Shown: piece by piece, positions 14,235 through 32,851 of the stretch
How positions within the stretch are numbered: position 1 is the stretch's first letter
Layout: each line of letters opens with the position of its first letter
NCBI GenBank assembly: GCA_038874475.1
Contig: JAVZCJ010000004.1
Coordinates: 72,127-105,492 of the forward strand
Length of the DNA: 33,366 nt
Direction of reading: 5' to 3'
Source: Nitrososphaerota archaeon
GTDB taxonomy: Archaea; Thermoproteota; Nitrososphaeria_A; Caldarchaeales; JAVZCJ01
Position numbers and translations under genes: made by a program
Notes under the pieces: generated by a model
What the model was told of the DNA's origin: nothing
What the model saw: only the letters and a program-made list of their open reading frames with translations
Database searches by the model: none

Positions 14235-14236
14235 AA

Positions 14237-15103: not shown

Positions 15104-15117
15104 TGGTGAGTATATAT

Positions 15118-15957
15118 ATGAATGTCCTAAAGATTTTAAAAAATGTTATAACAACTTCAATAATATGGCTTGTTGGTTTATTATGGACATTACCTCTAAT
15201 GGGAATTTTAATGGCTTCTATAAGACCTTATAGCGAAATTATAGATGGATGGTGGCGTTTTGAAAAATTTAATTTTACATTAGAAAACTTCTTTAAAGCA
15301 TGGAATCATGAATCTTTTCCTATAAGAATAGGATTCATTAATTCATTTATAGTTACAATTCCATCTACTATTATACCTTTAATTATAGGGGCACTTACAG
15401 GATATGGTTTTGCAAGATTCAAATTTCCTTTACGTGATTATTTTTTCCTATTTATAGTTCTATTTTTTGCTGTTCCTTTTCAATCAATAGCTATACCTGT
15501 CTTTAGAATTTTACAAGCAACTAAATTATTAGATACATATATTGGTCTGGTACTGGTTCATTCTTCATGGGGAATTCCTTTTGCTACTTTATTTATGAGA
15601 AATTTCTTTTTAACAATTCCAATTCAAATTGAAGAAGCGGCTAAATTGGATGGAGCATCTGATTTTCAAATATTCTATAAAATTACACTTCCATTATCAT
15701 TACCCGCTATGGCTTCTTTTTCAGTAATACAATTTACATGGGTATGGAGTGATTTCTTTTTTGCATTATTATATATTTTAAGCCCTGAGAAGTATTTAGC
15801 AACACAATGTTTACCATTATTAAAGGGGCTATATCATACACCATGGGATCTTTTAAGTGCTGCATCAGTATTGTTAATGAGCGTCCCCCTCCTAATTTAT
15901 GCTCTCTTTCAAAAATACTTTATTAGAGGTATGATAGGGTGGGCAATTAAAGGATAA
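15118..15957 (+). CDS. ABC sugar transporter permease (MalG/UgpE type)
   Basis: Second membrane subunit of the importer, with about six helices and the EAA motif E-E-A-A-K-L-D-G-A-S-D-F-Q-I-F-Y-K-I-T-L-P-L-S condensed in the C-terminal third. The ATG at 15118 is chosen because GGTGA lies eight bases upstream; an ATG at 15103 that overlaps the previous stop (TAATG) would add five residues and is also possible. No gene for the ATP-binding subunit lies on either side: the next gene is convergent. As in several sugar importers, a shared ATPase (MsmX/MalK type) encoded elsewhere would have to serve it. Confidence 0.9.
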   Translation: MNVLKILKNVITTSIIWLVGLLWTLPLMGILMASIRPYSEIIDGWWRFEKFNFTLENFFKAWNHESFPIRIGFINSFIVTIPSTIIPLIIGALTGYGFARFKFPLRDYFFLFIVLFFAVPFQSIAIPVFRILQATKLLDTYIGLVLVHSSWGIPFATLFMRNFFLTIPIQIEEAAKLDGASDFQIFYKITLPLSLPAMASFSVIQFTWVWSDFFFALLYILSPEKYLATQCLPLLKGLYHTPWDLLSAASVLLMSVPLLIYALFQKYFIRGMIGWAIKG

Positions 15958-15997: not shown

Positions 15998-17236
15998 TTA
16001 CTTTCCTCTTACTTCTAAAATACCTTCTTTTACAGCGTCCATATTTTCAAATGGTATTAAACCATAATCCCATGAAATTATTACTCCTTTAGATCCCGCC
16101 TTAAGTGATTGTATAACAGAATCTTTCACATATTTAGGAGATTGCCCAATAGCATTTATTCCTGCAACTATATCTGTTTTTCCATTAACTTCTTCTATAG
16201 CTTTTTTCACCTCTGAATAAATTTTTTCAGGAGTTAACGGTAAAGCAGGATAGGTGCCTGAATAAAACATAGGTTTTATCCAATCACAATGCTTACTTAG
16301 AGAACAGAAATCTGAAGCATATTTCCATGATTCTGAAGGCCCATAAATATCTAATGCAACTTCGACTTTACGATTTAATGATTTTACTAAGCCATATAAT
16401 TCAGCGTGAAATTCCGATAAACATTCGGCTTTAAAGAGTAACCATTCAAAATACTCTGGGACTTTTATTAAAAAGCTAATAACTTCATCAACTGTAGAAA
16501 GCTTTTGAACTTTTTCAGGTATCAAACCTAGGTTAACTCCATGAATTAAACCTTTTTTAATCTTATTAAAATCTATGTTTCTTTCTTTTGCTATTTTCTT
16601 ACAATGCTCACAAAAACATGTTAATCCCATCTCTGCTTTCTCTATTTCAACAGAACCTACTATTTCGACAAGCTCATCTGGAAGCTTTTTAAAACCATAT
16701 TGAATAGAATGGTCAAGTAAATCTAAAAAAACACCATCTATATCGTAGTTTTCAATCAAATCAGCAATTATACCATAATAAAGGTTCCTAACGTTTGGAT
16801 TATTAAAACAGAAAACATTGGGTACTGGACGGTTTAATACATCTCTAACAAAGCAATCCCAATATTCTTTGAAATAGGGAATTCTATTCAATATAAAAGC
16901 GTAACATTTCATATCTTTTTCATGTGCAAGCTTTGTTACTTCCTTTAAAATATCCATATTTCTTAGAATTGGATCTTTAGTTTTAACTGGTTTAATTTTT
17001 GTATTTTTGTAATATTCAGGTCGTGGGTCATAAAAGAAGCCACTTGATACAATTTTCTTTCTTTTTGGATTATGAGTAAGCTCTCCCCAATAGCTACTGT
17101 CCTGATAATCTATGTTTGTTAACATGAAAATAGTATTAATATCCCTTTTTTTCATTTCATTTAAAGAGTTTTCTATGCCCTCATCAACTAGCTCTAAAGG
17201 GAAAGAAATTTGCATACCAATAATAGCTCTATTCAT
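15998..17236 (-). CDS. Putative glycoside hydrolase-like TIM-barrel protein
   Basis: The 412-residue cytoplasmic protein (no signal peptide) looks like one of the poorly characterised TIM-barrel families related to glycoside hydrolases. Landmarks are an N-terminal strand followed by the N-T-I-F-M-L-T-N segment, the strand D-I-D-G-V-F-L-D-L-L-D with D167 and D172 as possible catalytic carboxylates, a C-F-C-E-H-C cluster (Cys 207, 209, 212) seen in such families near the active-site helix, then W-I-K-P-M-F-Y-S-G-T-Y and a final G-V-I-I-S-W-D-Y strand. It is convergent with the sugar-importer operon and 40 bases from it, so it may act on the imported sugar; that link is inference. A kinase or other sugar enzyme is not present nearby. 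The precise reaction is unknown. Confidence 0.65.
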   Translation of the reverse strand: MNRAIIGMQISFPLELVDEGIENSLNEMKKRDINTIFMLTNIDYQDSSYWGELTHNPKRKKIVSSGFFYDPRPEYYKNTKIKPVKTKDPILRNMDILKEVTKLAHEKDMKCYAFILNRIPYFKEYWDCFVRDVLNRPVPNVFCFNNPNVRNLYYGIIADLIENYDIDGVFLDLLDHSIQYGFKKLPDELVEIVGSVEIEKAEMGLTCFCEHCKKIAKERNIDFNKIKKGLIHGVNLGLIPEKVQKLSTVDEVISFLIKVPEYFEWLLFKAECLSEFHAELYGLVKSLNRKVEVALDIYGPSESWKYASDFCSLSKHCDWIKPMFYSGTYPALPLTPEKIYSEVKKAIEEVNGKTDIVAGINAIGQSPKYVKDSVIQSLKAGSKGVIISWDYGLIPFENMDAVKEGILEVRGK

Positions 17237-18010: not shown

Positions 18011-19129
18011 ATGCAGATTGTCGTCCACGAGATGCAACCAGGTGAAGAAAAAGAGGTTAAGAAACTTTTTACGAGGAGCCTTGGCATTACTGACAAGGTC
18101 ATCTTTCAACTTTCGTTTGAGGCAGCGCAGAAGAGCGCAAGAAAGGGAAGTGGAGTCACTTTAGTCGCAGAGCTCGAGGGAAAGATAGTTGGGTCAGTAT
18201 CTATGAGAATACAGGTTTTAAAAGGCAAGAGGACAGGTTTTATTGACGCGCTGGTCTCAGACAAAGAGCTTCGAGGGAGAGCTATTGGAAAATCCCTAGT
18301 AGAAGGAGCAATATTGTGGCTCGAGGAGCACGGATGTGAAGTCATCTATGCTACGGCCGACAGGTACAACTCTCCCTCATGGAACATATTCATACATAGG
18401 GGCTTCCATCCTTACGAGATACCAGAGCAGCTTAGGGACTATGGGCTAGACTTTCTAAAACTCTGGCTAACAGAGTTTCATTTCATAGGCTTCGGAACCT
18501 TCTTTCTTAGGCGAGATAAAGAACAAAGAAATTCTTGCGAAACAAGAGAGGTGGGACATTGGTTGGCTGCCCTGATAGGCATGTCCATAGTATGGTGGAT
18601 ACAAATATTGCGTGGTCAAGGATCGCTAATGCTTATCCCAATGGTTTCCTTGGCTGTAGCTATCAGCCTCCTAGCTCATGAGCTTTCGCAAAAGCTTGTT
18701 GCAAACAAACTTGATATAGAAACAACATTCAAAGCCTGGGGATCAGGAATATTTTTTAGCTGGCTGCTTGCGCTAGTCGGTAGCGTCTTCCCAGCGTATG
18801 GCTCAACATATGTGAAACAGCTAGACTGGCGTTATGACCCGGAAAAAGATAGGACTGGAATCGTATTCGCCATAGGTCCACTCGTCAGTCTGGCGCTCGG
18901 CTTCATATTCTGGGCAATATCAAAACTCACGGCTAAAAGTCTGATAGCGGTGCCAGCAACAGTCGGATACGTTACTAACCTATTGATCGTCATACTTAAT
19001 CTGATTCCGATTCAAGCGGCAGGGGGTTTCGTTTGGGATGGAAAAAAGATACTTAGGTGGAACAAGACCGCGTGGATCACGCTTGTTATAGCAACTTCCT
19101 TTCTAATTATGCTGGATTTTCTCCTCTAG
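18011..19129 (+). CDS. GNAT acetyltransferase fused to a degenerate M50 (site-2-protease-like) membrane domain
   Basis: Residues 1-155 form a GNAT domain; the acetyl-CoA loop is R-G-R-A-I-G-K-S-L at 88-96, and S-P-S-W-N-I-F-I-H-R-G-F-H-P is the usual C-terminal part. Residues 180-372 are membrane-embedded and match the M50 site-2-protease fold: A-H-E-L-S-Q at 222-227 takes the place of the zinc motif H-E-x-x-H, and L-I-P-I-Q-A-A-G-G-F-V-W-D-G-K (D343) corresponds to the N-P-x-P-x-x-x-x-D-G element. The second zinc His is Gln227, so proteolysis is doubtful. GC content and codons (CTC, GTC, GCG, AGG) are richer than all flanking genes, which points to transfer. A TTTATAAAC box centred near 17974 serves as promoter. 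Function: perhaps a regulatory membrane acetyltransferase; unproven. Confidence 0.75.
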   Translation: MQIVVHEMQPGEEKEVKKLFTRSLGITDKVIFQLSFEAAQKSARKGSGVTLVAELEGKIVGSVSMRIQVLKGKRTGFIDALVSDKELRGRAIGKSLVEGAILWLEEHGCEVIYATADRYNSPSWNIFIHRGFHPYEIPEQLRDYGLDFLKLWLTEFHFIGFGTFFLRRDKEQRNSCETREVGHWLAALIGMSIVWWIQILRGQGSLMLIPMVSLAVAISLLAHELSQKLVANKLDIETTFKAWGSGIFFSWLLALVGSVFPAYGSTYVKQLDWRYDPEKDRTGIVFAIGPLVSLALGFIFWAISKLTAKSLIAVPATVGYVTNLLIVILNLIPIQAAGGFVWDGKKILRWNKTAWITLVIATSFLIMLDFLL

Positions 19130-19448: not shown

Positions 19449-20597
19449 TTAAAGAGCATCAATAGTTAAAGGATATTTCCCATATTTTCTTGCTTCATCA
19501 ACCATTGTATATATATTTTCTATTTTACAATTTGCATGTAAAGAATTGCTTGATGCTAAAATAAATCCTCCTCCTTTACCTGCTGCATTTATGCATCTTC
19601 TTACATCTTTTCTTACATCTTCTTCTGTTCCATAAGGAAGAACATATCTACAATCTACATTTCCTACTAAACAAATTCTATCACCATACTTCTCTTTAAC
19701 TTCTGCTAGATCCATAACTCCAGGTTCAATTGGATGAAGACCTGATATTCCCGTATTAATTATATCATCTAATATTGGATAAAGGTAACCATCAGAATGT
19801 TTTAATACTGGTACCCCATTCTTTTTTCCTATATTAACAATTTCTTTTAAATATGGAAGTTCAAATTCTCTAAAGAACTTAGGACTCATAAGAGGGCCAT
19901 GATTATCTGCATAATCATCTGTAACAAATAGAATGTCTATGCCTACTTCAATCATTGCTTTTGCAAAACTTTGGCATGCTTTTCCAATCTTATCCATTAA
20001 TTTCTTTGCAAAACTTGGATTTCTATAAAAATCTATTACTAATTTATCAATTCCTCCTCTTACTTGAAATGCCATATGCCAACTACTATGAACTTGTCCC
20101 ATTGTAACAATGTCTTCATTTTTAACATTTTTCATAATTTTTTCCATCATTTCAATTATATCTGGATTAAATGCATTTGGAGGCTCGTATTTCTCTAAAT
20201 CTTCAATTGAATTAACAATCCCTCCAATAAAATATGTAGTTTTCCCTTCTATGCTTGTTTCCATTATTCTTCCCCATTGATCAATGAATTTTTTCCCATC
20301 AATAAATTTTGGTTTATATTTTTTATCTACAAGAGAATAATCGGAGAAAATTGGAGCTGCATCAAAATCAAGCTTTTTACATGCTTCTATTAATGCTGAT
20401 CTATATTTTATTGCAGATTCCCATGCTGTAATTGCAATACCGCTACTTAAATCTAAGCCAAATTTTGTTAATCCCAATCCCATATCCTTTTTTAAGATCT
20501 TCTCTACAATTGGTGGATCTATTGATAAATCTGTTATTGGCACATAGTCTGGTTCTTTCAATTCTAAAGCTTTAAAAAATCTTTCTCTATGATTCAT
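19449..20597 (-). CDS. UroD-fold corrinoid methyltransferase (MtaA/MtbA-like family)
   Basis: This 382-residue protein belongs to the uroporphyrinogen-decarboxylase superfamily, but its partner gene shows it is a methyltransferase rather than the haem enzyme. Characteristic stretches are M-N-H-R-E-R-F-F-K-A-L at the start, D-D-Y-A-D-N-H-G-P-L-M-S-P, K-H-S-D-G-Y-L-Y-P-I-L (H267, D269; MtaA enzymes have H-x-C here), V-G-N-V-D-C-R (C316) and S-L-H-A-N-C (C357), candidates for zinc binding. Members move methyl groups between a corrinoid protein and coenzyme M, tetrahydrofolate/methanopterin or a methylated substrate. The ATG at 20597 follows GGAGGT at seven bases and the stop of the corrinoid gene by one base, so the two genes form a tight operon. 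No separate substrate methyltransferase (MtxB) is nearby, so this protein might itself demethylate the substrate. Confidence 0.85.
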   Translation of the reverse strand: MNHRERFFKALELKEPDYVPITDLSIDPPIVEKILKKDMGLGLTKFGLDLSSGIAITAWESAIKYRSALIEACKKLDFDAAPIFSDYSLVDKKYKPKFIDGKKFIDQWGRIMETSIEGKTTYFIGGIVNSIEDLEKYEPPNAFNPDIIEMMEKIMKNVKNEDIVTMGQVHSSWHMAFQVRGGIDKLVIDFYRNPSFAKKLMDKIGKACQSFAKAMIEVGIDILFVTDDYADNHGPLMSPKFFREFELPYLKEIVNIGKKNGVPVLKHSDGYLYPILDDIINTGISGLHPIEPGVMDLAEVKEKYGDRICLVGNVDCRYVLPYGTEEDVRKDVRRCINAAGKGGGFILASSNSLHANCKIENIYTMVDEARKYGKYPLTIDAL

Positions 20598-20598
20598 T

Positions 20599-21237
20599 TT
20601 AACTACCTCCAACCCATTGCTTACATATTCTTAATCCATCAATAGCATTTCTTGCCCATGCATCAACTTCAGAATCTTTTGCTACTTTATCATTCACAGC
20701 AGCTCCTCCAATTATTACTTTTACTTTATCTCTTATCCTTTCTTTCTTTAATTCTTGAATAACATTTTTAAATTCTGGTATTGTAGTTGTTAAAAGAGCA
20801 GATAATCCTAATATTTTTGCATTATTATCTTTTACTGCTTTAACTATATCTTTAGAAGATACATCTACACCTAAATCAATAACTTTAAAATTGGATGAAT
20901 TTAGAAGCATTGCTACAATATTTTTACCAATATCATGCAAATCTCCTTTAACAGTGGCTAATACAACTGTAGCTATAGCTTTTTCTTCATCTTTTTTATA
21001 AAATGGTTCTATTATTTTTAATATTTCTTTTACGATTTCTCCTGCCATGATTAATTCTGATAAAAAATATTCATTATTTTCATATTTTTTACCAACAATA
21101 TCTAAAGCTTTTGAAATTGTTTTGAATATTTCATCCATTGATACTTCTTTAGAATAGACAATTTTTTTACAAATATCTATTGCTTTTTCAATTTCAAGAT
21201 TAATTATTGAATTTTCAAATTCATTTATCAAATTCAT
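20599..21237 (-). CDS. Corrinoid (B12-binding) protein of a methyltransferase system
   Basis: The 212-residue protein has the layout of MtbC/MtaC-type corrinoid carriers: a helical B12-binding-2 cap (about 1-85) and a Rossmann-like cobalamin domain with D-L-H-D-I-G at 99-104 (H101 is the lower cobalt ligand), G-L-S-A-L-L-T-T-T and I-I-G-G-A-A-V. It holds the methyl group on cobalt between the two half-reactions. Its stop codon region carries the ribosome site of the UroD-fold methyltransferase gene. A TTTATATA box 26 bases before the ATG gives a leaderless transcript. It is transcribed away from the aminotransferase gene across a 200-bp divergent control region with a palindrome. Confidence 0.92.
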   Translation of the reverse strand: MNLINEFENSIINLEIEKAIDICKKIVYSKEVSMDEIFKTISKALDIVGKKYENNEYFLSELIMAGEIVKEILKIIEPFYKKDEEKAIATVVLATVKGDLHDIGKNIVAMLLNSSNFKVIDLGVDVSSKDIVKAVKDNNAKILGLSALLTTTIPEFKNVIQELKKERIRDKVKVIIGGAAVNDKVAKDSEVDAWARNAIDGLRICKQWVGGS

Positions 21238-21259
21238 ATTTTTAAAACTAACTTTGTAG

Positions 21260-21267
21260 TATATAAA
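21260..21267 (-). promoter_or_regulatory. TATA box of the corrinoid/methyltransferase operon
   Basis: The minus strand reads GGTTTATATAC here; centre about 26 bases before the ATG at 21237, the classic leaderless spacing. Confidence 0.55.
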
Positions 21268-21399
21268 CCTAAATCAAAGAAGAAAAGTGAAAGTAAGAAC
21301 AATAAAGCTACAATGAAAAATAATTATAATGATAAAAACTTTTTTTGGTACAGGCAATCTATTTTTAAAATAAAATGTTGGATAGAAAAGTTTATTTTA

Positions 21400-21411
21400 T
21401 GGAAATTTCCA
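21400..21411. promoter_or_regulatory. 12-bp perfect palindrome, candidate operator
   Basis: TGGAAATTTCCA lies between a TATA-like AGTTTATTTTA (21390-21400) and the GGTGA ribosome site of the aminotransferase gene. A regulator bound here would block the promoter. AT-rich palindromes can arise by chance, so support is modest. Confidence 0.35.
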
Positions 21412-21440
21412 AATTTCTACATATAAAATAGGTGATTTAT

Positions 21441-22721
21441 GTGAGTTCTGAAGAATGGTATAAACGTGCTGTTAAGGTAATACCAGCAGGAGTAACAAGG
21501 CCTTTTAGATTTTTTGAACCATATCCATTTTATGTAAAAAAAGCACGTGGAAATAAAGTTATTGATTTTGAAAATAGAGAATATATCGATTTTTGGATGG
21601 GGCATGGAGCTTTAGTACTTGGGCATATGCATTCAGCGATAGTAAATGCAGTAAAAGAGCAAATTGAATATGGTTTTCATTTTGGTTTTTGTAATGAATG
21701 GGAAGTAAAATTAGCAGAACAAATAGTAAAACTTGTTCCAAGTGTTGAAATGGTTAGGTTTGCTAATGGTGGAACAGAAGCAAATATGCATGTAATAAGA
21801 CTTGCAAGAGCATATACAAAAAGATTGAAAATAGGGAAGTTTGAAGGGAATTTTCATGGTATTTATGAACCATTGTATGTAGGAATGAATGGTCCAAATA
21901 AAGAAATTGAGTCTGCAGGAATTGACCCTTTATCTATAGAAAATACTATAATTCTACCTTTTAATAATTCAGAAGCTATAAAAATAATAAAAAAGGAAGA
22001 ATTAGCTTGTGTGATTATTGAACCTATTATGGGTGGAGAATCAATACCAGCAGATATAGAATTTCTAAAAGAATTAAGAGAAGTTTGTAATGAAACTGGA
22101 ACTTTATTAATTTTTGATGAAGTAATAACAGGTTTTAGAATTGCTCCAGGTGGAGCACAAGAAGTATTTGGAGTTTTTCCTGATTTAACTACATTTGGAA
22201 AAGCTGTTGGTGGAGGAGAATTTCCAGTAGGAGCATTTGGAGGAAAAAGAGAAATAATGGATCTTATGGATCATTTAAAACATCCTGATAAAAAAGAATT
22301 TGTAATGCAAGGAGGAACTTATAGTGGAAATCCATTAGTTATGCATGCAGGATATTATGCTACAAAAGAATATGAGAAAAGAAGTTTATATGAACATATA
22401 AATAATTTAGGGAATAAACTTAAGAAAGGGTTAGAAGAAGTAGTTGAGGAAATAGGTAAAGGATATGTTACTGGTTTTGGTTCAATGATTAAATTGTATT
22501 TTACAAAAGAGAAAGTAAAAGATATAAGAACTACAAACAAAGCAAAGAATAAAGAAATTGAGAAGAAATATTTTCATTATTTAATTTCTAAAGGAATAAT
22601 AGCAATGACTCCAAGTGAAGTACACTTTTATATATCATTACCGCACACCGAGGAGAATATAAGAAAACTTATCGAGGCTACAGAAAGTTTTCTGAAATCT
22701 AATAGAGACAATTTACAATAA
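21441..22721 (+). CDS. Class III PLP aminotransferase (glutamate-1-semialdehyde aminomutase-like)
   Basis: A pyridoxal-phosphate enzyme of about 426 residues in aminotransferase class III. It shows G-G-T-E-A-N-M-H (cofactor phosphate), the Asp of I-F-D-E-V-I-T-G-F-R (about D226) and the Schiff-base Lys in T-T-F-G-K-A-V-G-G-G-E-F-P-V-G-A-F-G-G (about K254), the spelling used by glutamate-1-semialdehyde aminomutases. No haem genes are near, and the set of neighbours (transporter, dehydrogenase, methyltransferase) suggests a catabolic paralogue acting on another amino compound. GTG at 21441 is preferred because AGGTGA stands five bases upstream; a GTG at 21432 lies inside that site. The LivF gene follows on the same strand after 240 bases. 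Confidence 0.85.
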   Translation: MSSEEWYKRAVKVIPAGVTRPFRFFEPYPFYVKKARGNKVIDFENREYIDFWMGHGALVLGHMHSAIVNAVKEQIEYGFHFGFCNEWEVKLAEQIVKLVPSVEMVRFANGGTEANMHVIRLARAYTKRLKIGKFEGNFHGIYEPLYVGMNGPNKEIESAGIDPLSIENTIILPFNNSEAIKIIKKEELACVIIEPIMGGESIPADIEFLKELREVCNETGTLLIFDEVITGFRIAPGGAQEVFGVFPDLTTFGKAVGGGEFPVGAFGGKREIMDLMDHLKHPDKKEFVMQGGTYSGNPLVMHAGYYATKEYEKRSLYEHINNLGNKLKKGLEEVVEEIGKGYVTGFGSMIKLYFTKEKVKDIRTTNKAKNKEIEKKYFHYLISKGIIAMTPSEVHFYISLPHTEENIRKLIEATESFLKSNRDNLQ

Positions 22722-22959
22722 ATCCTATAAAGATAAAATTTTATTGAATGAGTTATAAAAATGGCAATCATTTCCTAAAAGACATTTTATTGGTGATTAA
22801 AAATTAATATAAACTTAGGTTAAATTAAAAGAATTGAAAAATTTCTGTAGTATCACAAGGATGAAGACATTAAGAGATATAAGAAGAATTTATACTTGAT
22901 AACTTAAAAATATATTAGTAACCTTTCTGTAGATTTATAATACATCAGAGGGTAAATAG

Positions 22960-23670
22960 ATGAGTTTAGAAGCATATGATATTGTTTCTGGTTATGGTAA
23001 GATGGAAATCTTGCATGGAGTTTCATTAAAGGCAGAAAAATCAAAAATTACAGCATTTATTGGTCCAAATGGTGCAGGTAAATCTACCCTTTTAAAAACA
23101 ATTTATGGCTTTATTAAGCCTTGGAAGGGGCAAGTCATATTTGATAATGAAGATGTAACAAATTTAGATCCTGATTTGAAATTAAAAAAAGGAATCGCTT
23201 ATGTTCTTCAAGGAAGGAATATCTTTCCATATATGACAGTGTTGGAAAATCTACAAATAGCAGCGTATACTTGGAAGGATCGCAGTAAACTTAAGGAAAA
23301 AATAAAAAGTATTCTTGAGAGATTCCCTATCTTGAAGGGAAGAGAAAATCAGTTAGCTGGAAACCTGAGTGGTGGTGAACAAAGAATACTCGAACTTGGA
23401 AGAGTTTTAATGCTATCTCCAAAAGCAATTTTGTTTGATGAACCAACATTAGGACTTGCACCAAAAGTTATTGATGAACTATATGAAAAGATAATAGAAT
23501 TAAATAAGGAAGATAAAATAACTTTTCTTATAGTTGAACAAAACGTACGCAAAGTTTTAAGTGTTGCAGATTATGTTTATGTCCTTGAATTGGGTAAAAA
23601 TAAACTTGAAGGTAAGGCTAATGAACTTTTAGAAAATGAAGGTTTGAGAAAAACTTACTTAGGCTATTAA
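22960..23670 (+). CDS. livF: Branched-chain amino acid-type ABC transporter ATPase (LivF-like)
   Basis: The 236-residue ATPase has Walker A G-P-N-G-A-G-K-S-T (35-43), the signature L-S-G-G-E-Q-R (136-142), Walker B A-I-L-F-D-E-P and the LivF-type ending (A-N-E-L-L-E-N-E-G-L-R-K-T-Y-L-G-Y). It would pair with the LivG-like ATPase encoded on the opposite strand 1.4 kb further on, completing a K-H-M-G-F importer. Its separation from the rest of the operon, by a dehydrogenase gene and on the other strand, is unusual. AGATTTATAATA before the ATG is a promoter candidate, and GAGGG lies seven bases ahead of the start. Confidence 0.9.
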   Translation: MSLEAYDIVSGYGKMEILHGVSLKAEKSKITAFIGPNGAGKSTLLKTIYGFIKPWKGQVIFDNEDVTNLDPDLKLKKGIAYVLQGRNIFPYMTVLENLQIAAYTWKDRSKLKEKIKSILERFPILKGRENQLAGNLSGGEQRILELGRVLMLSPKAILFDEPTLGLAPKVIDELYEKIIELNKEDKITFLIVEQNVRKVLSVADYVYVLELGKNKLEGKANELLENEGLRKTYLGY

Positions 23671-23829
23671 AGTTCATTTTAAATTTTTGAAATATTTATA
23701 TGATTATTTTAAGAAAAAGAGACCTAAAAATTAGTAATTTGTAGAATATGTTAGATACAAAATCTGATAAATTTTTTTAAAATTTAAATATGAGAATACA
23801 AAGCTTCAAATAAAGAGAGATGGAATGAT

Positions 23830-24873
23830 ATGGAAAATGAAATTAAAGTAATACTTTGTGGGCTTGGTCCAATGGGGAAATTAATTGCAAAAGAAATTTT
23901 GGAGAAAAAAGGAGTGAGAATAGTCGGTGCTGTTGATGTAGCAAAAGAAATGGTTAATAAGGATCTTGGAGAGATACTAGAGTTAGGTAAAACTCTTGGT
24001 ATAAAGGTTACTAATGATTTGGAAGGTCTTCTTTCTGATATTGAAGCGGATGTGGCAATAGTCGCAACCAGTTCTTATCTAAAGGATGTTTATCCACAAA
24101 TAGCATTATTTGTGAAAGCAGGAATTAATGTGATATCTACATGTGAAGAACTTTCTTATCCATATTACAAATATCCTGCGCTATCAAATGAAATCGATTT
24201 ATTGGCTAAAAAGCATCATGTAACAATACTTGGGACTGGAATTAATCCTGGATACTTAATGGATACCTTACCAATAACTCTTACTGGAGTTTGTAAACAT
24301 GTAGATAGCATTAAAGTAACAAGGATGATGAATTCATCTAAACGTAGAGTCTCTTATCAAAAAAAGATAGGAACGGGATTAACTCCTGAAGAATTCAAAA
24401 AAATGGTTAATGAGAAAAAGATAACTGGGCATGTAGGCTTATTAGAATCAATAGCCATGATTGCTGCTGCATTAGAATGGAAACTTGATGAAATAAAAGA
24501 ACTACCGCCTGAGCCAGTTATAGCTGAAAAGGAAATATTAACTTCTTATACGACCATCAAAGTGGGTCATGTATGTGGTTTGAAGAGTATAGCACATGGA
24601 ATTAAAGCTGGGAGACCTGTTATAATTCTTGAATTCATTTCTCATGCAGCTGTAGAAGAAGAATATGATGCTATTTTAATTGATGGAGTACCAAAAGTAT
24701 ATGAAAAAATAGCTGGTGGAATTCATGGAGACATAGGAACCGCTGCTATAGTTATTAATATGATTCCTAAATTACTTAATGCTAACCCAGGCTTACTTAC
24801 AATGAAAGATTTGCCTTTACCATCAGCTGCTATCGAGGATCTGAGAGTTTATCTCAACTGGAAGAGATGCTAA
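23830..24873 (+). CDS. 2,4-diaminopentanoate dehydrogenase-like NAD(P)-dependent enzyme
   Basis: The 347-residue protein has a Rossmann fold (G-L-G-P-M-G at 11-16) related to dihydrodipicolinate reductase and a C-terminal domain as in 2,4-diaminopentanoate dehydrogenase, with T-G-I-N-P-G-Y-L-M-D, G-H-V-G-L-L-E-S and the family ending N-P-G-L-L-T-M-K-D-L-P-L-P. The characterised enzyme oxidatively deaminates 2,4-diaminopentanoate in ornithine fermentation, but its usual partners (ornithine aminomutase, AKP thiolase) are not present, so the true substrate is likely a related amino compound. It lies between livF and the convergent livG and probably has its own promoter (TTTAAATATG around 23780). 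Confidence 0.8.
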   Translation: MENEIKVILCGLGPMGKLIAKEILEKKGVRIVGAVDVAKEMVNKDLGEILELGKTLGIKVTNDLEGLLSDIEADVAIVATSSYLKDVYPQIALFVKAGINVISTCEELSYPYYKYPALSNEIDLLAKKHHVTILGTGINPGYLMDTLPITLTGVCKHVDSIKVTRMMNSSKRRVSYQKKIGTGLTPEEFKKMVNEKKITGHVGLLESIAMIAAALEWKLDEIKELPPEPVIAEKEILTSYTTIKVGHVCGLKSIAHGIKAGRPVIILEFISHAAVEEEYDAILIDGVPKVYEKIAGGIHGDIGTAAIVINMIPKLLNANPGLLTMKDLPLPSAAIEDLRVYLNWKRC

Positions 24874-25001
24874 AAAGATCCTTTTTTAAGGTTACATCTT
24901 TATAGCATATTAATGTATATCTGGTTTATAAATGTTTATATTCTTTATTCTCATTTTTCTTTTGATTCTAAGAGTGAGGGTTAGAAAACTAAAGGCTTTT
25001 A

Positions 25002-25030
25002 TTTTTATCATTCATTTTTTATGATAAAAA
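25002..25030. terminator. Hairpin between convergent genes, likely bidirectional terminator
   Basis: TTTTTATCAT and ATGATAAAAA form a 10-bp stem around a T-rich 9-base loop. It lies between the ends of the dehydrogenase gene (24873) and livG (25056), giving T runs on either strand. Confidence 0.4.
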
Positions 25031-25055
25031 AATTAGTGTATTTCGAGACATTCTT

Positions 25056-25769
25056 TTATACTTCTACTTTACCTAAATAAGCTTCAATTACTCTCTCATT
25101 ATATCTGATTTCTTCAGGCGATCCCTCGGCAATTTTTTTACCAGCATCTAACACCATTATTTTTTCACATATGCCCATAACGAAAGGGATATTATGCTCT
25201 ACTATAAGGAAAGTTTTGCCATAATCATTTCTTAACTCTTTAATAATATCGTTTACTCTTTTTACCATTACTGGATTTAGACCTCCTACAGGTTCATCAA
25301 GTAAAATAAGATCTGGATTGCCCATGAGTACTAAAGCAAACTCTAGCATTCTTTGTTGTCCATAAGATAAGTTTCCTGCATATTCATCTTTTAAATGATA
25401 TAAATCGAAAAACTTTAATAATTCGATTGCTCTTTCTTGAATTTTCTCTTTCTCTTGTGTATAGATTAGTGGAATTTTAAGATTTTCAATTACACTTATT
25501 CTTTTAAATATTCGGGTATTTTGAAATAGCATAGCAATACCCTTTCGTACAATTTGATGCGTTTTTAAACCATTAATACACTCATTTTTAAAATATATAT
25601 TTCCAGAATCTGGTTTTTCAAAAGCCATAATTATATTAAGAATTGTTGATTTTCCTGATCCATTAGGTCCTATTAACCCAAAAATTCGTTTTTCTTTTAC
25701 TTCAAATGAGCAATTATCAACAGCTTTTATTCCACCAAATCTCTTAGTTAAATTTGTTACTTTTAACAC
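25056..25769 (-). CDS. livG: Branched-chain amino acid-type ABC transporter ATPase (LivG-like)
   Basis: An ABC ATPase of about 237 residues with Walker A G-P-N-G-S-G-K-S-T (34-42), signature L-S-Y-G-Q-Q (134-139), Walker B L-I-L-L-D-E-P, and the LivG feature P-V-G-G-L-N-P after it. The GTG at 25769 is chosen because AGGAGG lies nine bases upstream and M-L-K-V-T-N-L-T-K-R-F-G-G is the normal family start; the ATG at 25778 directly touches that ribosome site. The stop of livM overlaps the same AGGAGG, so translation is coupled. It is the last gene of the minus-strand Liv operon. Confidence 0.9.
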   Translation of the reverse strand: MLKVTNLTKRFGGIKAVDNCSFEVKEKRIFGLIGPNGSGKSTILNIIMAFEKPDSGNIYFKNECINGLKTHQIVRKGIAMLFQNTRIFKRISVIENLKIPLIYTQEKEKIQERAIELLKFFDLYHLKDEYAGNLSYGQQRMLEFALVLMGNPDLILLDEPVGGLNPVMVKRVNDIIKELRNDYGKTFLIVEHNIPFVMGICEKIMVLDAGKKIAEGSPEEIRYNERVIEAYLGKVEV

Positions 25770-25782
25770 ACTTATCATCCTC

Positions 25783-26763
25783 CTAATGAGTATTTTTGAT
25801 CTTTTTAATTTTTAGATTATTGAATATATTTATTTTTAAGTGTGGAGTACTTTTTATAGCTTCAAAAAGTTGGGCAATTCCACCTGAAAAGAACAGTATT
25901 ATCAAAATTATGATAATGCTAGTAATAACCAAGTTGTATACTACACCTAAAAAGCGTAAAGATTCTATTAAACTATACAAAACTATTGTACCGATTATAG
26001 GACCTATAATTGTACCCTTCCCTCCAACAAGAGTCATGGCCATAATTAAACAAGAATTAGCACTTGCCATTATAGTTGGAGTAACAATAACAACATAATG
26101 AGCATAAAGAGCCCCTCCTAAGCCAGCAAGGAAAGCACTAATAAAAAATGCTAAAACTTTAAAAAATGTGGTATTTATGCCACAAGCACTAGCCAATACT
26201 TCATCTTCCCTAATAGTTTGAAAGGCTAAACCTATTCTAGACTTTATTATATAATATGCAAAGAGAACGCATATGGCCATTATACATAAACAAAGAAGAT
26301 AACATTGCAATGAATCGTTAAGAAGGGGGGAAAATCTATACAAACCATAAGGTCCATTAGTTACCTCAACCCAATTATTTGCTATCAATCTAAATGTTTC
26401 AGAGATAGCTATCGTGCTTACTACAAAATAGGGGCCCCTAAGCCTAAGGGCTGGAAGAGCAAAAACCAATCCTATAAATGCACTAAAAAATCCTCCTGCA
26501 ATTATGCATAGCCATACAGAAAGGCCAAAATTTAAATTTAATAAAGCCGAAGTATAAGCTCCTATACCCATCAATGCAGCATGACCGAAAGACAATTGAC
26601 CCGTAAACCCGTATAATATATCCCAGCTGACTGCTATTATGCTATATATAGCCATTATGCCAAAAATACGTAACAAATAGTCATTCATATATAGAATAGG
26701 AAAAATAAATATTACGATATTTATTATAAAAAATATGATATTTCTAATTTTTGGGGCTCCCAT
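25783..26763 (-). CDS. livM: Branched-chain amino acid-type ABC transporter permease (LivM-like)
   Basis: Membrane subunit of 326 residues with about nine helices. It carries the LivM signature G-Q-L-S-F-G-H-A-A-L-M-G-I-G-A-Y, the R-L-R-G-P-Y-F-V-V-S-T stretch and the ATPase-contact loop G-L-A-F-Q-T-I-R-E-D-E-V-L-A-S-A-C-G-I-N. It starts four bases after the livH stop; GGGTG in the end of livH serves as its ribosome site. Confidence 0.92.
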   Translation of the reverse strand: MGAPKIRNIIFFIINIVIFIFPILYMNDYLLRIFGIMAIYSIIAVSWDILYGFTGQLSFGHAALMGIGAYTSALLNLNFGLSVWLCIIAGGFFSAFIGLVFALPALRLRGPYFVVSTIAISETFRLIANNWVEVTNGPYGLYRFSPLLNDSLQCYLLCLCIMAICVLFAYYIIKSRIGLAFQTIREDEVLASACGINTTFFKVLAFFISAFLAGLGGALYAHYVVIVTPTIMASANSCLIMAMTLVGGKGTIIGPIIGTIVLYSLIESLRFLGVVYNLVITSIIIILIILFFSGGIAQLFEAIKSTPHLKINIFNNLKIKKIKNTH

Positions 26764-26767
26764 TTTT

Positions 26768-27649
26768 TTACACCCTAACTTCTTTTCCTAAAAGTCCCTC
26801 ATGTTTAAAAAATAATATGACAATCATTAGTAAGAGACCTATCACATCTCTAAATCCTCCCTTAATAACAAATACAGATAAAGATTCTACCGTTCCTAAT
26901 AATAAAGCAGCTAATATTGTTCCGATAAGATTACCCATGCCTCCGATTATTACCACCGCAAATGATTTTGTAAGATAATATGCACCTTGATAAGGCGTCA
27001 TTGCATACATCGGAGCTAGAAGCCATCCTGCCACAGCTGCTAATACTACACTTAATCCAAAAGTGATTTTATAAATGCGATGAGCATTTATACCTAATGT
27101 CCATGCCAATGGAGCATTCTGACTTACTGCACGAATAGCTTTGCCGATCATGGATAATTTAAGAAATAGGAATAAAATTATTATTCCAAAAATAGCAATA
27201 ACAGAAGAAGTTACACGTTGTAAACCAATAGAAATCCCAAAGAAAGATAATGTCCCTTCTATTCTAAATCCTGAGCTAAAAGGATATGCTCCCCAAATAC
27301 TTAACATAGTACTTTCAAGAATGATTGAAAGTGCATAAGTAATTATAAGAGAAGTATCCCCTTCACTCCCTCTAAGGCGAGGGTATTCAAGTAGACATTT
27401 ATTTATAATCAACCCTAAAATAAAAAACATAAATAAATATAAAGGAATAAGAAGTATAATAGGAATATTAAACCAAATATACAAAGTGCTTAATATGTAG
27501 ACACCCATCACGATCATAGCACCATGAGCAAAATTAACAACACGCATTACTCCAAAAATAAGTGCAAGTCCTAAACCCATTAAACCATAAAGACAACCTA
27601 ATAAGAGACCATTAATTATTTGTTGGATTAGTAAAGTTATATCAAGCAA
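26768..27649 (-). CDS. livH: Branched-chain amino acid-type ABC transporter permease (LivH-like)
   Basis: The 293-residue partner permease begins with the LivH hallmark G-L-L-L-G-C-L-Y-G-L-M-G-L-G-L-A-L-I-F-G and V-V-N-F-A-H-G, and has the contact loop I-R-A-V-S-Q-N-A-P-L-A-W-T-L-G-I-N. The start is a TTG at 27649 with GAGGG eight bases upstream; there is no suitable ATG without loss of the first helix. It follows the amidohydrolase-fold gene by 68 bases on the same strand, so the operon order is K, amidohydrolase, H, M, G. Confidence 0.92.
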   Translation of the reverse strand: MLDITLLIQQIINGLLLGCLYGLMGLGLALIFGVMRVVNFAHGAMIVMGVYILSTLYIWFNIPIILLIPLYLFMFFILGLIINKCLLEYPRLRGSEGDTSLIITYALSIILESTMLSIWGAYPFSSGFRIEGTLSFFGISIGLQRVTSSVIAIFGIIILFLFLKLSMIGKAIRAVSQNAPLAWTLGINAHRIYKITFGLSVVLAAVAGWLLAPMYAMTPYQGAYYLTKSFAVVIIGGMGNLIGTILAALLLGTVESLSVFVIKGGFRDVIGLLLMIVILFFKHEGLLGKEVRV

Positions 27650-27717
27650 CTGATAATCCCTCTAAATTTTTCATAAAAAGTTACTAATATACTTTTTCTA
27701 ATATTCCATCTTATTCA

Positions 27718-28737
27718 TTAAAGGCCTAGTAGCTTGGAGGCATTTTCTCCTAAAACAAGATCTTTCTCAGCTTCGCTTAGGAAATTACAATGTTTCCGTA
27801 CAAAGTCAATAGCTTGTCTATAAGTGCATGTTCGCATTAGCATTGGCATGTCTGATCCCCATACTAATTTTTCTGCTCCGACAGCTTTATAAGCTTCTTT
27901 CGTCATTTTTTGTGCTAAAGGATAAGGATATTCATCAAACTTATCAAATGCTAGTAAGTAACCTATTTCATACCAAACATTTGGTAGCTTTATAAGATTC
28001 AAGATCTTCTTCGGCATTTCCACATATTCTGGATCTTTAGGATCACGAATGTTTGAGCCCATTGTTGAAATTATTACTTTCAGATCTGGGAACTTCTTTA
28101 ATACTTTAATAGTTTTTGAAACTCGAGTTAAATATTGTTCAGCAGTAGGGGTGCGCCCCAACTCTAAGACCAATGGTACTTTCAAATGCAGAAGTTCATC
28201 CCAAAATGGAAAAAGATCTTCTTTATCAATATCTGGACAATGAGAAAACTCAAAGAAAAGCCCTTTTAGTCCCAGTTTCATTATACAGCGTCTTAATTCT
28301 TTTAATTGAGGCTCTTCTGATGCTTTGGACTCGTTTATTTGCGCCACAGCAGAAAATCTATTTGGCCACTTTTTTACACAATCAGCTAGATAATCGTTCA
28401 AGCGACCATAAAAATGATTTTGATAAAGTACAGCTTTATCAACCCCTACCCAATCCATATGAGCTAGCATATGCTCAGGCGGCCAAGCCATATCCACCAC
28501 AGTTGGAGGTAAGTATCTTAAGAAACATTTTCTACCATCTTTGATCCACTCTATTTTCCCATACTTCCCAACTTTCAACTGCACATTTTCATTTGGTCCA
28601 GGGAGTGGACCTTCATATATCATATGATTGGATGTACTTACTAATTTCTGAATATATTTAAGGTGTTCTTCGGGACTCTCATAACCTGATGCTTCATTTA
28701 ATGGTGGAAATGCATGTGCATGTATATCAATTATCAT
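27718..28737 (-). CDS. Amidohydrolase-2 fold protein with altered metal site, within Liv operon
   Basis: A 339-residue TIM-barrel protein of the amidohydrolase-2 (ACMSD/o-pyrocatechuate decarboxylase) family. The strand-1 H-A-H motif (H6, H8) and the strand-8 Asp in W-G-S-D-M-P (D296) are kept. The two middle His residues of the family are not visible: the expected l-H-x-G in strand 5 is L-E-L-G (E192) and the expected H-L-G in strand 6 is S-T-M-G (T225). Either the metal centre is rearranged, with Glu replacing His, or the enzyme works differently. Family members decarboxylate or hydrolyse small ring compounds and lactones. Its place between livK and livH implies that it acts on the imported compound. 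The ATG at 28737 has GGGG seven bases before it. Confidence 0.8.
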   Translation of the reverse strand: MIIDIHAHAFPPLNEASGYESPEEHLKYIQKLVSTSNHMIYEGPLPGPNENVQLKVGKYGKIEWIKDGRKCFLRYLPPTVVDMAWPPEHMLAHMDWVGVDKAVLYQNHFYGRLNDYLADCVKKWPNRFSAVAQINESKASEEPQLKELRRCIMKLGLKGLFFEFSHCPDIDKEDLFPFWDELLHLKVPLVLELGRTPTAEQYLTRVSKTIKVLKKFPDLKVIISTMGSNIRDPKDPEYVEMPKKILNLIKLPNVWYEIGYLLAFDKFDEYPYPLAQKMTKEAYKAVGAEKLVWGSDMPMLMRTCTYRQAIDFVRKHCNFLSEAEKDLVLGENASKLLGL

Positions 28738-28799
28738 ACATTTTCCCCTTATTATTTTTAAATTATTCTTAACAAAAATATCAATAAAAAAAAGGGAGT

Positions 28800-30185
28800 T
28801 TATGAGAACGTCATAGGAACGAAATCGGTTTCTTTTAGTTCTTGTGGCCAGATTATTAAGTGTTTACCGTTTCTTATTTGTCCAACTTCTAGAGTTGCAT
28901 ATGGACGTCTATGCGTGTCTTTTTCGAAATATATTGGACCTAATACTCCCATAATATTAACATTCAATAATGCCTCAGCAATAGCATCTGGTTCAAGTGA
29001 GTTAGCTTTTTTAATTGCTTCAAACATCGCTAAAGCTCCATCGTATGTTTGACTAGCTGCTCTTGTCCAATAACCATATTTCTTCTCCATTTTTTCAATA
29101 AATGGCATCGATAGTGGAGTAACCGGCCCTCTTTTAAAAACTATTTCAGCTATCCATAATTCATTTGTTGGAGAGGTTTCTGCTGCCCATCTTGGATCTA
29201 CGAAACTTCCGAACATAGCAGCTACAGGGATACGCATGTCCAACTCTTTCCATTGGTTTACAACGCTCCAACAACCAGTTCCCCCTATGATTAGTAATAA
29301 TAGATCTGGTTTTTCTGCTTTGATCGATGTTAACTCTGGAGTGAAGTCTGTAGTTCCTTGCTCAACAAGATATTCTGAGAATTTTATATCTGAAATTAGA
29401 CTGCTTGAAGTATTCTTGAAGGCAGACATAGCATCAAGTGAAGGTTCGTCATTCATAGACAAAATTGCAACTTTCTTAGGTTTATAATAATGAGCTACAC
29501 ATTGCGCCATAGTTACACCACGATCATCTGCTATGGGGGATGTTGAAAATATATATTTCATTTTTTCTTCTTTTATTCTTCTTGGTATTTGTGAGGATGT
29601 TGTAACAGTAGTTATGTACGGTATTTTATATTTCTCGATCAAATCCATACATCTAAGAAACATGCTGCTCATATAAGCTCCTACACCTACATTTATCTTA
29701 TCTATAGTCGCAGCTCTCTCTACTAATTCTACACCTTTCTCTGCCTTTCCTTCCGTGTCATATATAATAATATCAATCTTATACCTTTTTCCTTTAATAA
29801 CAAAACCTCCTGCTTCATTAATTTCCTCCGCAGCAATATATAAAGCATGAGCGCATGCCCATTCTTCTACGCTCCACTGTCCAGTTACACCTAATAATGT
29901 ACCTACTTTAATTGTTCCATCCCATGTATATGGAACTGTAGTTACAACTGTAGTAGGCATAACAGCTGTAGTAACAACCGTAGTAGGTTGAGGGGCTGTA
30001 GTTACAACCGTTGTTGGAGCTGGAACTGTAGTTACAACTGTAGTAGGTGTTGGAGGTGGTGGTTTTGTTAGTTCAGAAATACCATAACCAATTGCTGCAG
30101 CTGCACCTGCAACTACTGCACCTGCACCAATATATTTTATATACTTTCTCCTATCCATTTTCTCTTCTTTCTTTTCTTCTGACAT
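28800..30185 (-). CDS. livK: Branched-chain amino acid/amide-type ABC substrate-binding protein (LivK-like), Tat-exported
   Basis: The 461-residue protein has a twin-arginine signal (D-R-R-K-Y-I-K-Y at 11-18 followed by an Ala/Gly-rich helix), a Pro/Thr/Val linker with four 10-residue repeats (about 47-86), and a type I periplasmic-binding-protein domain starting I-K-V-G-T-L-L-G-V-T-G-Q-W. Typical landmarks are A-A-E-E-I-N-E-A-G-G and I-I-I-Y-D-T-E-G-K. Such proteins bind hydrophobic amino acids, amides, urea or aromatic acids; the ligand cannot be told. First gene of the minus-strand operon; a TATATATAA box near 30217 gives a very short leader. Confidence 0.9.
   Translation of the reverse strand: MSEEKKEEKMDRRKYIKYIGAGAVVAGAAAAIGYGISELTKPPPPTPTTVVTTVPAPTTVVTTAPQPTTVVTTAVMPTTVVTTVPYTWDGTIKVGTLLGVTGQWSVEEWACAHALYIAAEEINEAGGFVIKGKRYKIDIIIYDTEGKAEKGVELVERAATIDKINVGVGAYMSSMFLRCMDLIEKYKIPYITTVTTSSQIPRRIKEEKMKYIFSTSPIADDRGVTMAQCVAHYYKPKKVAILSMNDEPSLDAMSAFKNTSSSLISDIKFSEYLVEQGTTDFTPELTSIKAEKPDLLLLIIGGTGCWSVVNQWKELDMRIPVAAMFGSFVDPRWAAETSPTNELWIAEIVFKRGPVTPLSMPFIEKMEKKYGYWTRAASQTYDGALAMFEAIKKANSLEPDAIAEALLNVNIMGVLGPIYFEKDTHRRPYATLEVGQIRNGKHLIIWPQELKETDFVPMTFS
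29928..30047 (-). repeat. Four tandem 30-bp repeats coding the LivK linker
   Basis: Four copies of a 30-base unit encode P-T-T-V-V-T-T followed by three variable residues. The DNA copies differ at scattered positions, so they are old or drifting. The linker probably spaces the binding domain from the membrane and may be O-glycosylated on Thr. Confidence 0.8.
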
Positions 30186-31714: not shown

Positions 31715-32851
31715 ATGTCTGAAGAAAAAAGAAAAAAAGTAAGTCCATCTTTGATTGCTTCTGTTATTATCATAATAGTGCTTTTAGCCGCGTTGGTATA
31801 TTATGCAACTCTTCCTCCAAAAGTTGAAGTTGTTCCAACTACGATTGTTACTACAAAAACTCTAGAAGTTGGACCACGTGAAATAAAGATAGGTGTTATA
31901 GGAAAATCATTATCTCCATGGTGGACAATAGCAAAAGCTGGAGCTGAGTATGCTGGGAAAGTACTTAAAATTCATGTAGACTTTTTTGCTCCAACAAAGG
32001 AGGATGTCCCAGCTCAATTAGATGCTTTTGATTCATATTTAGCTAAGGGTTATGATGCCATAGCTTTTGCATGTTCCGATCCTAAAGCAAGTGTAACATA
32101 CATAAATAAAGCTATTGAAAAAGGTGTACCAGTAATTACATATAATAGCGACTCTCCTGAAAGCAAAAGACTTTGCTTTGTAGGTATTAGTGATTATGAA
32201 GGTGGAAGAGCTGCCGGCGAATTAATGATTAAAGCTTTACAAGAGAAAGGTATATCGATTAAAGGATCAAAATTTGGTATAGGACAAGGATCTGCCACGG
32301 CTTTAAATGCTATAGAAAGAGCCAGGGGTTTTGCTGATGTTATTAAAGCTGCTGGTGGAATAGTTTTAGAACCAGTAATAGATAAAGAAGATCCTGAAAA
32401 AGCATTTGAATTAGCAACAACTCTTTTAACTGCTAATCCAGATATTGTCGGAGTGTTTGGAACTTATAGCTATAATGGTAAAGCATTATCAGCAGCTGTA
32501 AAGCAACTCGGATTAGTAGGTAAAGTTACCGTTATACAATTTGATACTCTCAAGCAAAACATTGATCCAATAGCTGAAGGGGTATCTTATGGAACTATCG
32601 GACAAAGGCAATTCTTCCAAGCATTTCATGCGGTTAGACTTTTATATAATATTATTATTAACAAAATGTATTATAACGATTTAAATAAAGCAGTAGAAAT
32701 AGTTTTAACAAGTGAGATAATGGGTTATCCTGAAAATAAATGGTATCCAGTAGGATTCGATGAAGTAACCGTAAACAATCTAAAAGAAGTAGCTTTACTT
32801 TATGATAAATTGGGAATGCCAAGAGATTGGAAATATCCAGGAGAGCCTTAA
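31715..32851 (+). CDS. ABC transporter substrate-binding protein, ribose/rhamnose type
   Basis: The 378-residue protein starts with a single hydrophobic helix (about 11-31) that acts as signal or anchor, a short P-T-T-I-V-T-T linker, and a type I periplasmic-binding-protein domain of the RbsB/autoinducer family: I-K-I-G-V-I-G-K-S, F-D-S-Y-L-A-K-G-Y-D-A-I-A-F-A-C-S-D-P, G-V-P-V-I-T-Y-N-S-D-S-P and G-Y-P-E-N-K-W-Y-P-V at the end. Unlike the other two binding proteins in the window it has no twin-arginine motif, so it should leave by the Sec route. The natural partner, an RbsC-type permease, is on the opposite strand and converges with it, not in an operon. Ligand unknown; a pentose, deoxysugar or nucleoside-like compound is likely for the family. 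Confidence 0.88.
   Translation: MSEEKRKKVSPSLIASVIIIIVLLAALVYYATLPPKVEVVPTTIVTTKTLEVGPREIKIGVIGKSLSPWWTIAKAGAEYAGKVLKIHVDFFAPTKEDVPAQLDAFDSYLAKGYDAIAFACSDPKASVTYINKAIEKGVPVITYNSDSPESKRLCFVGISDYEGGRAAGELMIKALQEKGISIKGSKFGIGQGSATALNAIERARGFADVIKAAGGIVLEPVIDKEDPEKAFELATTLLTANPDIVGVFGTYSYNGKALSAAVKQLGLVGKVTVIQFDTLKQNIDPIAEGVSYGTIGQRQFFQAFHAVRLLYNIIINKMYYNDLNKAVEIVLTSEIMGYPENKWYPVGFDEVTVNNLKEVALLYDKLGMPRDWKYPGEP

Follow-up and report, generated by a model that had tools for sequence, protein, structure and literature searches.

UroD-superfamily proteins can act as substrate:corrinoid methyltransferases (methyltransferase I, MTI). In the papers cited here, the members MtvB, OdmB, VdmB, MtoB, CdmB and CmuA are such enzymes themselves, and the type is known from methoxylated aromatics and haloalkanes (PMC13222342; PMC8630106). 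The acetogen A. dehalogenans is rich in methyltransferase systems, with 26 (PMC13222342). An archaeal precedent has a UroD-type MTI feeding an MtrH-like methyltransferase II (MTII; PMC8630106), and MtgB of Bathyarchaeia is, according to the paper that describes it, a different protein type (PMC10989822). Two further described enzymes bear on the present locus. Group-1 native amine dehydrogenases have Arg where 2,4-diaminopentanoate dehydrogenases have Phe; the group comprises 1,427 models, virtual screening and gene context gave it no clear role, and a Vulcanisaeta member was docked with carboxylate substrates (PMC11164908). Kat is a HemL-like 3-aminobutyryl-CoA transaminase from a genome without other porphyrin genes (PMC3149608). 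Here we compare these systems with ten genes at positions 19449-30185 of a 33,366-nt stretch of DNA from a Nitrososphaerota archaeon (G000:C4:72127-105492), called the window throughout. The genes encode a UroD-type methyltransferase and its corrinoid carrier (CorC), a HemL-like aminotransferase (AT3), an amine dehydrogenase, and a Liv-type importer with an amidohydrolase-fold protein.

The locus appears to hold three modules with different histories, lying side by side. We consider this more likely than a single pathway and give it a probability of roughly 0.55. All ten gene calls of a preliminary description, made from the sequence alone, were borne out by open reading frames (ORFs) at the same coordinates and by family matches:

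19449..20612, minus strand: UroD-superfamily methyltransferase, probable substrate:corrinoid methyltransferase (MTI); PF01208 URO-D, 1.2e-40
20599..21237, minus strand: corrinoid carrier protein CorC; B12-binding PF02310, 1.7e-26, and PF02607, 4.3e-12
21432..22721, plus strand: AT3, HemL-like class III aminotransferase; PF00202, 1.7e-61
22960..23670, plus strand: LivF-type ATPase, apart from the Liv run; UrtE/LivF models, 214/198 bits
23830..24873, plus strand: native amine dehydrogenase of group-1 type (annotated DAP dehydrogenase-like); PF19328 DAP_DH_C, 1e-47
25056..25778, minus strand: LivG-type ATPase; PRK11300 LivG, 236 bits
25783..26763, minus strand: LivM-type permease; PF02653 (BPD_transp_2), 4.2e-46
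26768..27649, minus strand: LivH-type permease; PF02653, 4.6e-29, UrtB-like, 152 bits
27718..28737, minus strand: Amidohydro_2 protein with the fold of ACMSD and dihydroxybenzoate decarboxylase; PF04909, 5.9e-28
28800..30185, minus strand: LivK-type substrate-binding protein; PF13458, 9.4e-42

Thus, the minus strand carries LivK, the amidohydrolase-fold gene, LivH, LivM and LivG (30185 to 25056) as well as CorC-UroD (21237 to 19449), and the plus strand carries AT3, LivF and the amine dehydrogenase (21432 to 24873). The source genome (1.92 Mb, 30 contigs) is 97.5% complete.

Relatives carry the modules apart, which makes neighbouring modules more likely than one pathway. In the genus-mate G001, AT3 (93% identical) lies on contig C2 without the window's neighbours, the dehydrogenase (62%) lies on C3, and UroD (82%) lies on C25, where a contig end cuts the gene and leaves the CorC side unseen. 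The preliminary description had proposed one catabolic pathway and had named separate occurrence of its halves in relatives as an observation that would speak against it; this is what we see in G001 and in other relatives. UroD relatives 53-73% identical to the window protein occur in 14 loci of 11 named archaeal metagenome-assembled genomes (MAGs). Matches to AT3, the amine dehydrogenase and the Liv permeases are absent from all 14, many of which are cut by contig ends. Some of these loci come from the same MAG, three are contigs that are also counted among the loci of other relatives, and a fifteenth (Clostridiales, 21%) was left out.

CorC and UroD are paired genes. The UroD protein probably starts at an in-frame ATG at 20597, not at the TTG at 20612. 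This ATG sits 1 base past the stop of the corrinoid gene, relatives of the protein start at an identical MNHRERFF or close by, and the 1-nt spacing is repeated in the genome G180. With a URO-D fold domain and an adjoining cognate corrinoid gene, the window protein is a probable MTI. CorC carries GDLHDIGKN, which we take to be a B12-binding motif. The UroD protein does not qualify as MtaA or MtbA: it scores 90 bits against cut-offs of 235 (TIGR01463) and 400 (NF040654), falls below the MtaA and CmuA model cut-offs, and lacks HxC. Where HxC aligns in MtaA-like proteins the window UroD has H-S-D, and three paralogues in the same genome do have HxC; HxC...C is presumably the zinc motif of MtaA/MtbA. 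The string D-x14-E-x20-H occurs in the window UroD (from residue 236) and, in the same register, in 6 of the 21 other UroD proteins compared, these six being its near relatives. We assume E-x14-E-x20-H to be a zinc motif of O-demethylase methyltransferases; the motif string is absent from the papers listed by a literature search, and we give the match no weight.

This pair resembles known demethylation systems in its composition. MtoBC of Methermicoccus, MtvBC of Moorella, and OdmB/VdmB and CdmBC of Acetobacterium likewise combine a UroD-fold protein with a small corrinoid carrier. The likeness extends to an MtrH-like protein in the genome and to a RACo activase beside relatives of the window UroD. 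The window differs from these systems in that no MTII or activase family, as in mto or cdm, was detected among the window proteins scanned. The preliminary description had stressed that the UroD protein lacks an MtxB-type substrate enzyme; that premise falls, because in several systems the UroD-superfamily protein itself takes the part of the substrate enzyme (PMC13222342; PMC8630106). Together, CorC and UroD would form a two-protein methyl-harvesting system in which UroD binds a methylated compound and passes its methyl group to Co(I) on CorC. The lone MtrH-like protein, encoded elsewhere, would probably hand the methyl group on to a pterin.

The genome-wide inventory is as follows. There are ten B12-binding_2 matches, CorC being one, and 15 UroD-family ORFs besides that of the window in 11 genome stretches (one a weak match of 64 bits, another truncated at the end of its contig). 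We found no match to MtaB in the genome and a single MttB, which lies beside a different corrinoid protein; the single MtrH is on another contig. The preliminary description would have counted an MtxB homologue paired with this corrinoid protein elsewhere in the genome against its pathway; neither MtaB nor MttB provides such a case. The inventory suggests that UroD-type proteins are the likely methyl-entry enzymes of the genome, as in acetogens rich in methyltransferase systems. ALAD (HemB) has no match in this 97.5% complete genome and was found in 11 of 14 control genomes. Given ten corrinoid-protein matches and no ALAD match, the corrinoid is probably salvaged or imported.

Some further observations concern UroD genes in other genomes. 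An in-frame TAG in the UroD gene of G072 and G093 was considered as pyrrolysine and rejected: in G072 it lies just ahead of the MNHRERFF start, and the aligned protein is stop-free from the conserved start in both, which places the TAG outside the protein. A UroD relative in a genome of the same order (L176, G038:C22) has several stops and frame changes and is apparently decaying. A plasmid search returned 17 UroD records and 10 amidohydrolase records, all below 60% identity.

The dehydrogenase of the window groups with native amine dehydrogenases. The preliminary description had called it diaminopentanoate-dehydrogenase-like. The family (PF19328) stands, and the whole-length match is shared with Ord, the 2,4-diaminopentanoate dehydrogenase of ornithine fermentation, but the function probably does not carry over: the protein reaches 324 of the 400 bits required by NF040740 and has Arg instead of the active-site Phe. 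This Arg occupies the Phe175 column of 6g1h in 33 of 33 aligned sequences (the window's and 32 others), and the catalytic Glu is kept. Eight solved sequences were matched; three go by the name of amine dehydrogenase, the other five by that of dihydrodipicolinate reductase or the like; 6g1h and 6g1m are, we assume, AmDH4. With PF19328, the catalytic Glu and Arg at position P12, as we read that column, the protein classifies by sequence as a group-1 native amine dehydrogenase. At the published position P15, which is His in group 1, the alignment is gapped. Relatives of the dehydrogenase (53-59%) adjoin LamB_YcsF/CT_C_D/CT_A_B genes, that is, a PxpABC-type 5-oxoprolinase, in 7 of 20 loci (L073, with families tested, and L076, L079, L080, L082, L083 and L084, by similarity). 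These dehydrogenases fall in one supported tree group, together with unlabelled rows.

AT3 is HemL-like but probably not HemL in function. It reaches 398 of the 527 bits of the HemL model TIGR00713 and is the genome's only match above 160 bits. As a glutamate-1-semialdehyde aminomutase it misses the equivalog cut-off, and its genome has no match to ALAD. Without such a match AT3 is unlikely to feed tetrapyrrole synthesis, and we disfavour a role as the genome's HemL. The same reasoning led to Kat (PMC3149608). Both are HemL-like class III enzymes, likened here by genome content, Kat's genome lacking other porphyrin genes and AT3's an ALAD match; the neighbour of AT3 is an amine dehydrogenase and not the lysine fermentation genes that accompany Kat.

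AT3 and the dehydrogenase recur as a pair across the phylum. The dehydrogenase has a match in 128 of 398 phylum genomes, and some AT3 match is present in 288 of 300. Among the 300 genomes common to both searches, with thresholds of E <1e-40 for the dehydrogenase and at least 330 bits for AT3, the dehydrogenase is present in 51 of 65 AT3 genomes and in 26 of 235 others (Fisher p 2e-25, ignoring relatedness). In 10 of the 51, the two are immediate neighbours that point the same way and are separated by 56-120 bp; in G099 they lie 1.6 kb apart on opposite strands, and in the window LivF lies between them. Four genomes with weaker AT3 matches (G051, G072, G079 and G093), added because their proximity had already been seen, have the pair 1.3-2.9 kb apart on opposite strands, and G138 has a second AT3-like gene within 6 kb. 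Published gene context gave group-1 enzymes no clear role; here there is a pairing with a HemL-like aminotransferase, for which we found no report among the matches listed in the open-access full-text literature. The window dehydrogenase forms a clade (99/99) with those of G347, G086 and the genus-mate G001, and AT3 adjoins none of those three. The proximity in the window is thus not simply inherited from the clades with adjacent genes; judged from the tree, it either arose separately or was retained here and lost elsewhere. AT3, a pyridoxal phosphate enzyme, would move an amino group, which the NAD(P)-dependent dehydrogenase would then free as ammonia, the two most likely acting in sequence. 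The dehydrogenase step may regenerate the acceptor or, if the substrate is a diamino acid, deal with its second amino group.

The importer is a full set in two pieces. Its K, H, M, G and F components are all present, as the preliminary description had claimed, with the qualification that LivF is set apart from the others on the plus strand, flanked by AT3 and the dehydrogenase. This position suggests a link between the importer and the amine pair, and the two may well work together; we regard the methyltransferase pair as more likely to be separate. The importer would probably bring in the carboxylate substrate of AT3 and the dehydrogenase, or a precursor, and the amidohydrolase-fold protein would act on the imported compound. 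Among 300 phylum genomes, no close relative of the LivK binding domain turned up (best 105 bits, 27%, with at most 5 candidates scored per genome); the best solved relative of LivK is SAR11_0655, bound to L-pyroglutamate. Pyroglutamate, which the PxpABC-type genes beside relatives of the dehydrogenase also bring to mind, is nevertheless disfavoured as the substrate because the genome has no PxpA-family match and a ligand cannot safely be assigned at 20% identity. LivK also has an archaeal-looking signal and a Thr/Val/Pro linker. Residues 5-94, which span these parts, are 76% identical to a frame at G000:C5:83352-83618, and the match stops before the binding domain. A swap of the export parts is possible.

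The amidohydrolase-fold protein is without a close relative in 150 related genomes (best other match 36 bits). Its predicted model (pLDDT 78) resembles ACMSD and the dihydroxybenzoate and 5-carboxyvanillate decarboxylases (Foldseek 7pwy, 9.7e-15), with a TM score by query length of ~0.54-0.62. The ACMSD-type residue set is incomplete: HxH and the beta-8 Asp are kept, and LELGRT and ISTMGS replace the beta-5 and beta-6 His, which most aligned amidohydrolase relatives possess. In decarboxylases of this type, these two His bind the metal.

What, then, is the relationship among the modules? The preliminary description envisaged that the Liv system imports a methylated amino compound, that UroD-CorC demethylates it and that AT3 and the dehydrogenase deaminate the rest. 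Of this proposal, a plausible importer-deamination link is retained, along with a recurrent AT3-dehydrogenase pair. Nothing ties methyl transfer to an amino compound except the 194-bp region from which CorC and AT3 diverge and the genome G180, in which a distant UroD relative (47%) adjoins a class I/II aminotransferase, with a complete Liv importer ~4 kb away. Physical proximity and the position of LivF inside the AT3-dehydrogenase block favour one pathway as well. Its parts lie apart in G001, the G001 UroD being cut by the contig end, and none of the 14 named UroD loci, several of them truncated in the same way, has AT3, the dehydrogenase or Liv permeases nearby. The CorC-UroD pair is found in none of the 10 adjacent AT3-dehydrogenase loci, which have no match to LivH, LivM, LivK or CorC; three contain an ABC ATPase at 25-34%, and in two a distant UroD match (23-30%) lies no more than 20 kb away. 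In the literature covered, no amino compound appears as the substrate of a UroD-type MTI. We therefore consider one pathway quite unlikely. A narrower version, a recently assembled route in which an N- or O-methylated diamino or amino-dicarboxylic acid enters through Liv, UroD demethylates it onto CorC, and AT3 and the group-1 dehydrogenase deaminate it, seems very unlikely.

Two other substrates for the UroD protein need to be weighed. CorC-UroD could demethylate an O-methylated sugar or hydroxyacid unrelated to Liv, with a candidate importer at 12915-15957 of the window, where a binding protein and MalF/MalG-type permeases are encoded. The evidence comes from the surroundings of UroD relatives. 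In L200 (5724-11149, families tested), a binding protein, MalF, MalG, a D-2-hydroxyacid dehydrogenase and UroD run in one direction; L202 (5717-11134) has the same run by similarity, 10-12 nt precede UroD in both, and the truncated L201 (2-3155) and L203 (3-2984) agree, showing the final genes of such a run. This arrangement suggests that an O-methylated sugar or hydroxyacid is imported and then demethylated. Within the source genome, a MalFG- or ribose-type importer lies within ~2.5 kb of UroD in 3 of 7 other UroD stretches; of 20 random 11-kb stretches, one contains an importer, and it overlaps the window. This control is small and biased, since its queries were drawn from the window and the positive stretches and UroD genes occur in two of the random ones. 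Four of the seven UroD stretches have no such importer, nor does L214 (weak UroD, uncounted). In the window itself the MalFG set is 3.5 kb off on the opposite strand, with three genes between and no ATPase gene adjoining, and the window UroD is slightly closer to RACo-linked copies (68-73%) than to importer-linked ones (64-67%). The RACo-linked loci are L194 (families tested), where UroD adjoins the activase and both CorC and MtaB are found inside 8 kb, L195 and L197, alike by similarity, and L196, a short contig with the activase alone beside UroD; the remaining loci of the 14 have different surroundings. On balance, the sugar or hydroxyacid route is unlikely for this locus. Alternatively, Liv might import a methoxylated aromatic acid for O-demethylation by UroD-CorC and decarboxylation by the amidohydrolase. 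Several characterised UroD-type MTIs are O-demethylases (PMC13222342), the modelled amidohydrolase folds like the two aromatic acid decarboxylases, and hydroxybenzoate binders are among the LivK fold matches. Pyroglutamate and leucine binders rank equally high, the amidohydrolase lacks the two metal-binding His of those decarboxylases, and AT3 and the amine dehydrogenase are left unexplained. An aromatic substrate is accordingly improbable.

Several points also weigh against the reading we prefer, namely separate modules with an importer-linked amine pair beside a methyltransferase pair. The 194-bp divergent region could reflect co-regulation of CorC and AT3. AT3 reaches 394 of the 398 bits required by PRK00062, 4 short of a threshold that one of its relatives, in L134, does pass. 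AT3 and the dehydrogenase lie apart in 39 of the 51 genomes (best AT3 match only); relatedness ignored, a strong AT3 is missing from 26 genomes with the dehydrogenase, and the reverse holds for 14. Gaps of 238 bp (AT3-LivF) and 159 bp (LivF-dehydrogenase) in the window contain TATA-like hexamers, an uncontrolled observation, and with gaps this long AT3, LivF and the dehydrogenase may be on separate transcripts. The nearest solved LivK relatives bind, by title, pyroglutamate, leucine, hydroxybenzoates or urea at ~20% identity, and the reactions suggested for UroD are drawn from relatives of low identity.

Other features of the window and of the UroD-bearing MAGs stand apart from this question. 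Three of the four MAGs with an importer-linked UroD (L200-L203) also carry a RACo-linked copy (L194, L195, L196). Elsewhere in the window, a second binding protein, of ribose type, is encoded at 31715-32851, and long ORFs at 10511-12397 (628 aa) and 15998-17236 (412 aa) have no Pfam match above cut-off. In a 372-aa protein encoded at 18011-19129, a GNAT acetyltransferase domain precedes a peptidase M50 match that is weak and below cut-off.

The recurrent pairing of AT3 and the dehydrogenase in this archaeal phylum provides a lead on the role of group-1 amine dehydrogenases and a concrete two-enzyme hypothesis. If the recently assembled route were true, it would add an amino compound to the substrates of UroD-type demethylases and also give group-1 amine dehydrogenases a role. 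Ten corrinoid proteins and 15 further UroD ORFs in the stretches scanned, with no MtaB and one MttB, suggest that UroD-type demethylation may be a main route of methyl entry in such archaea.

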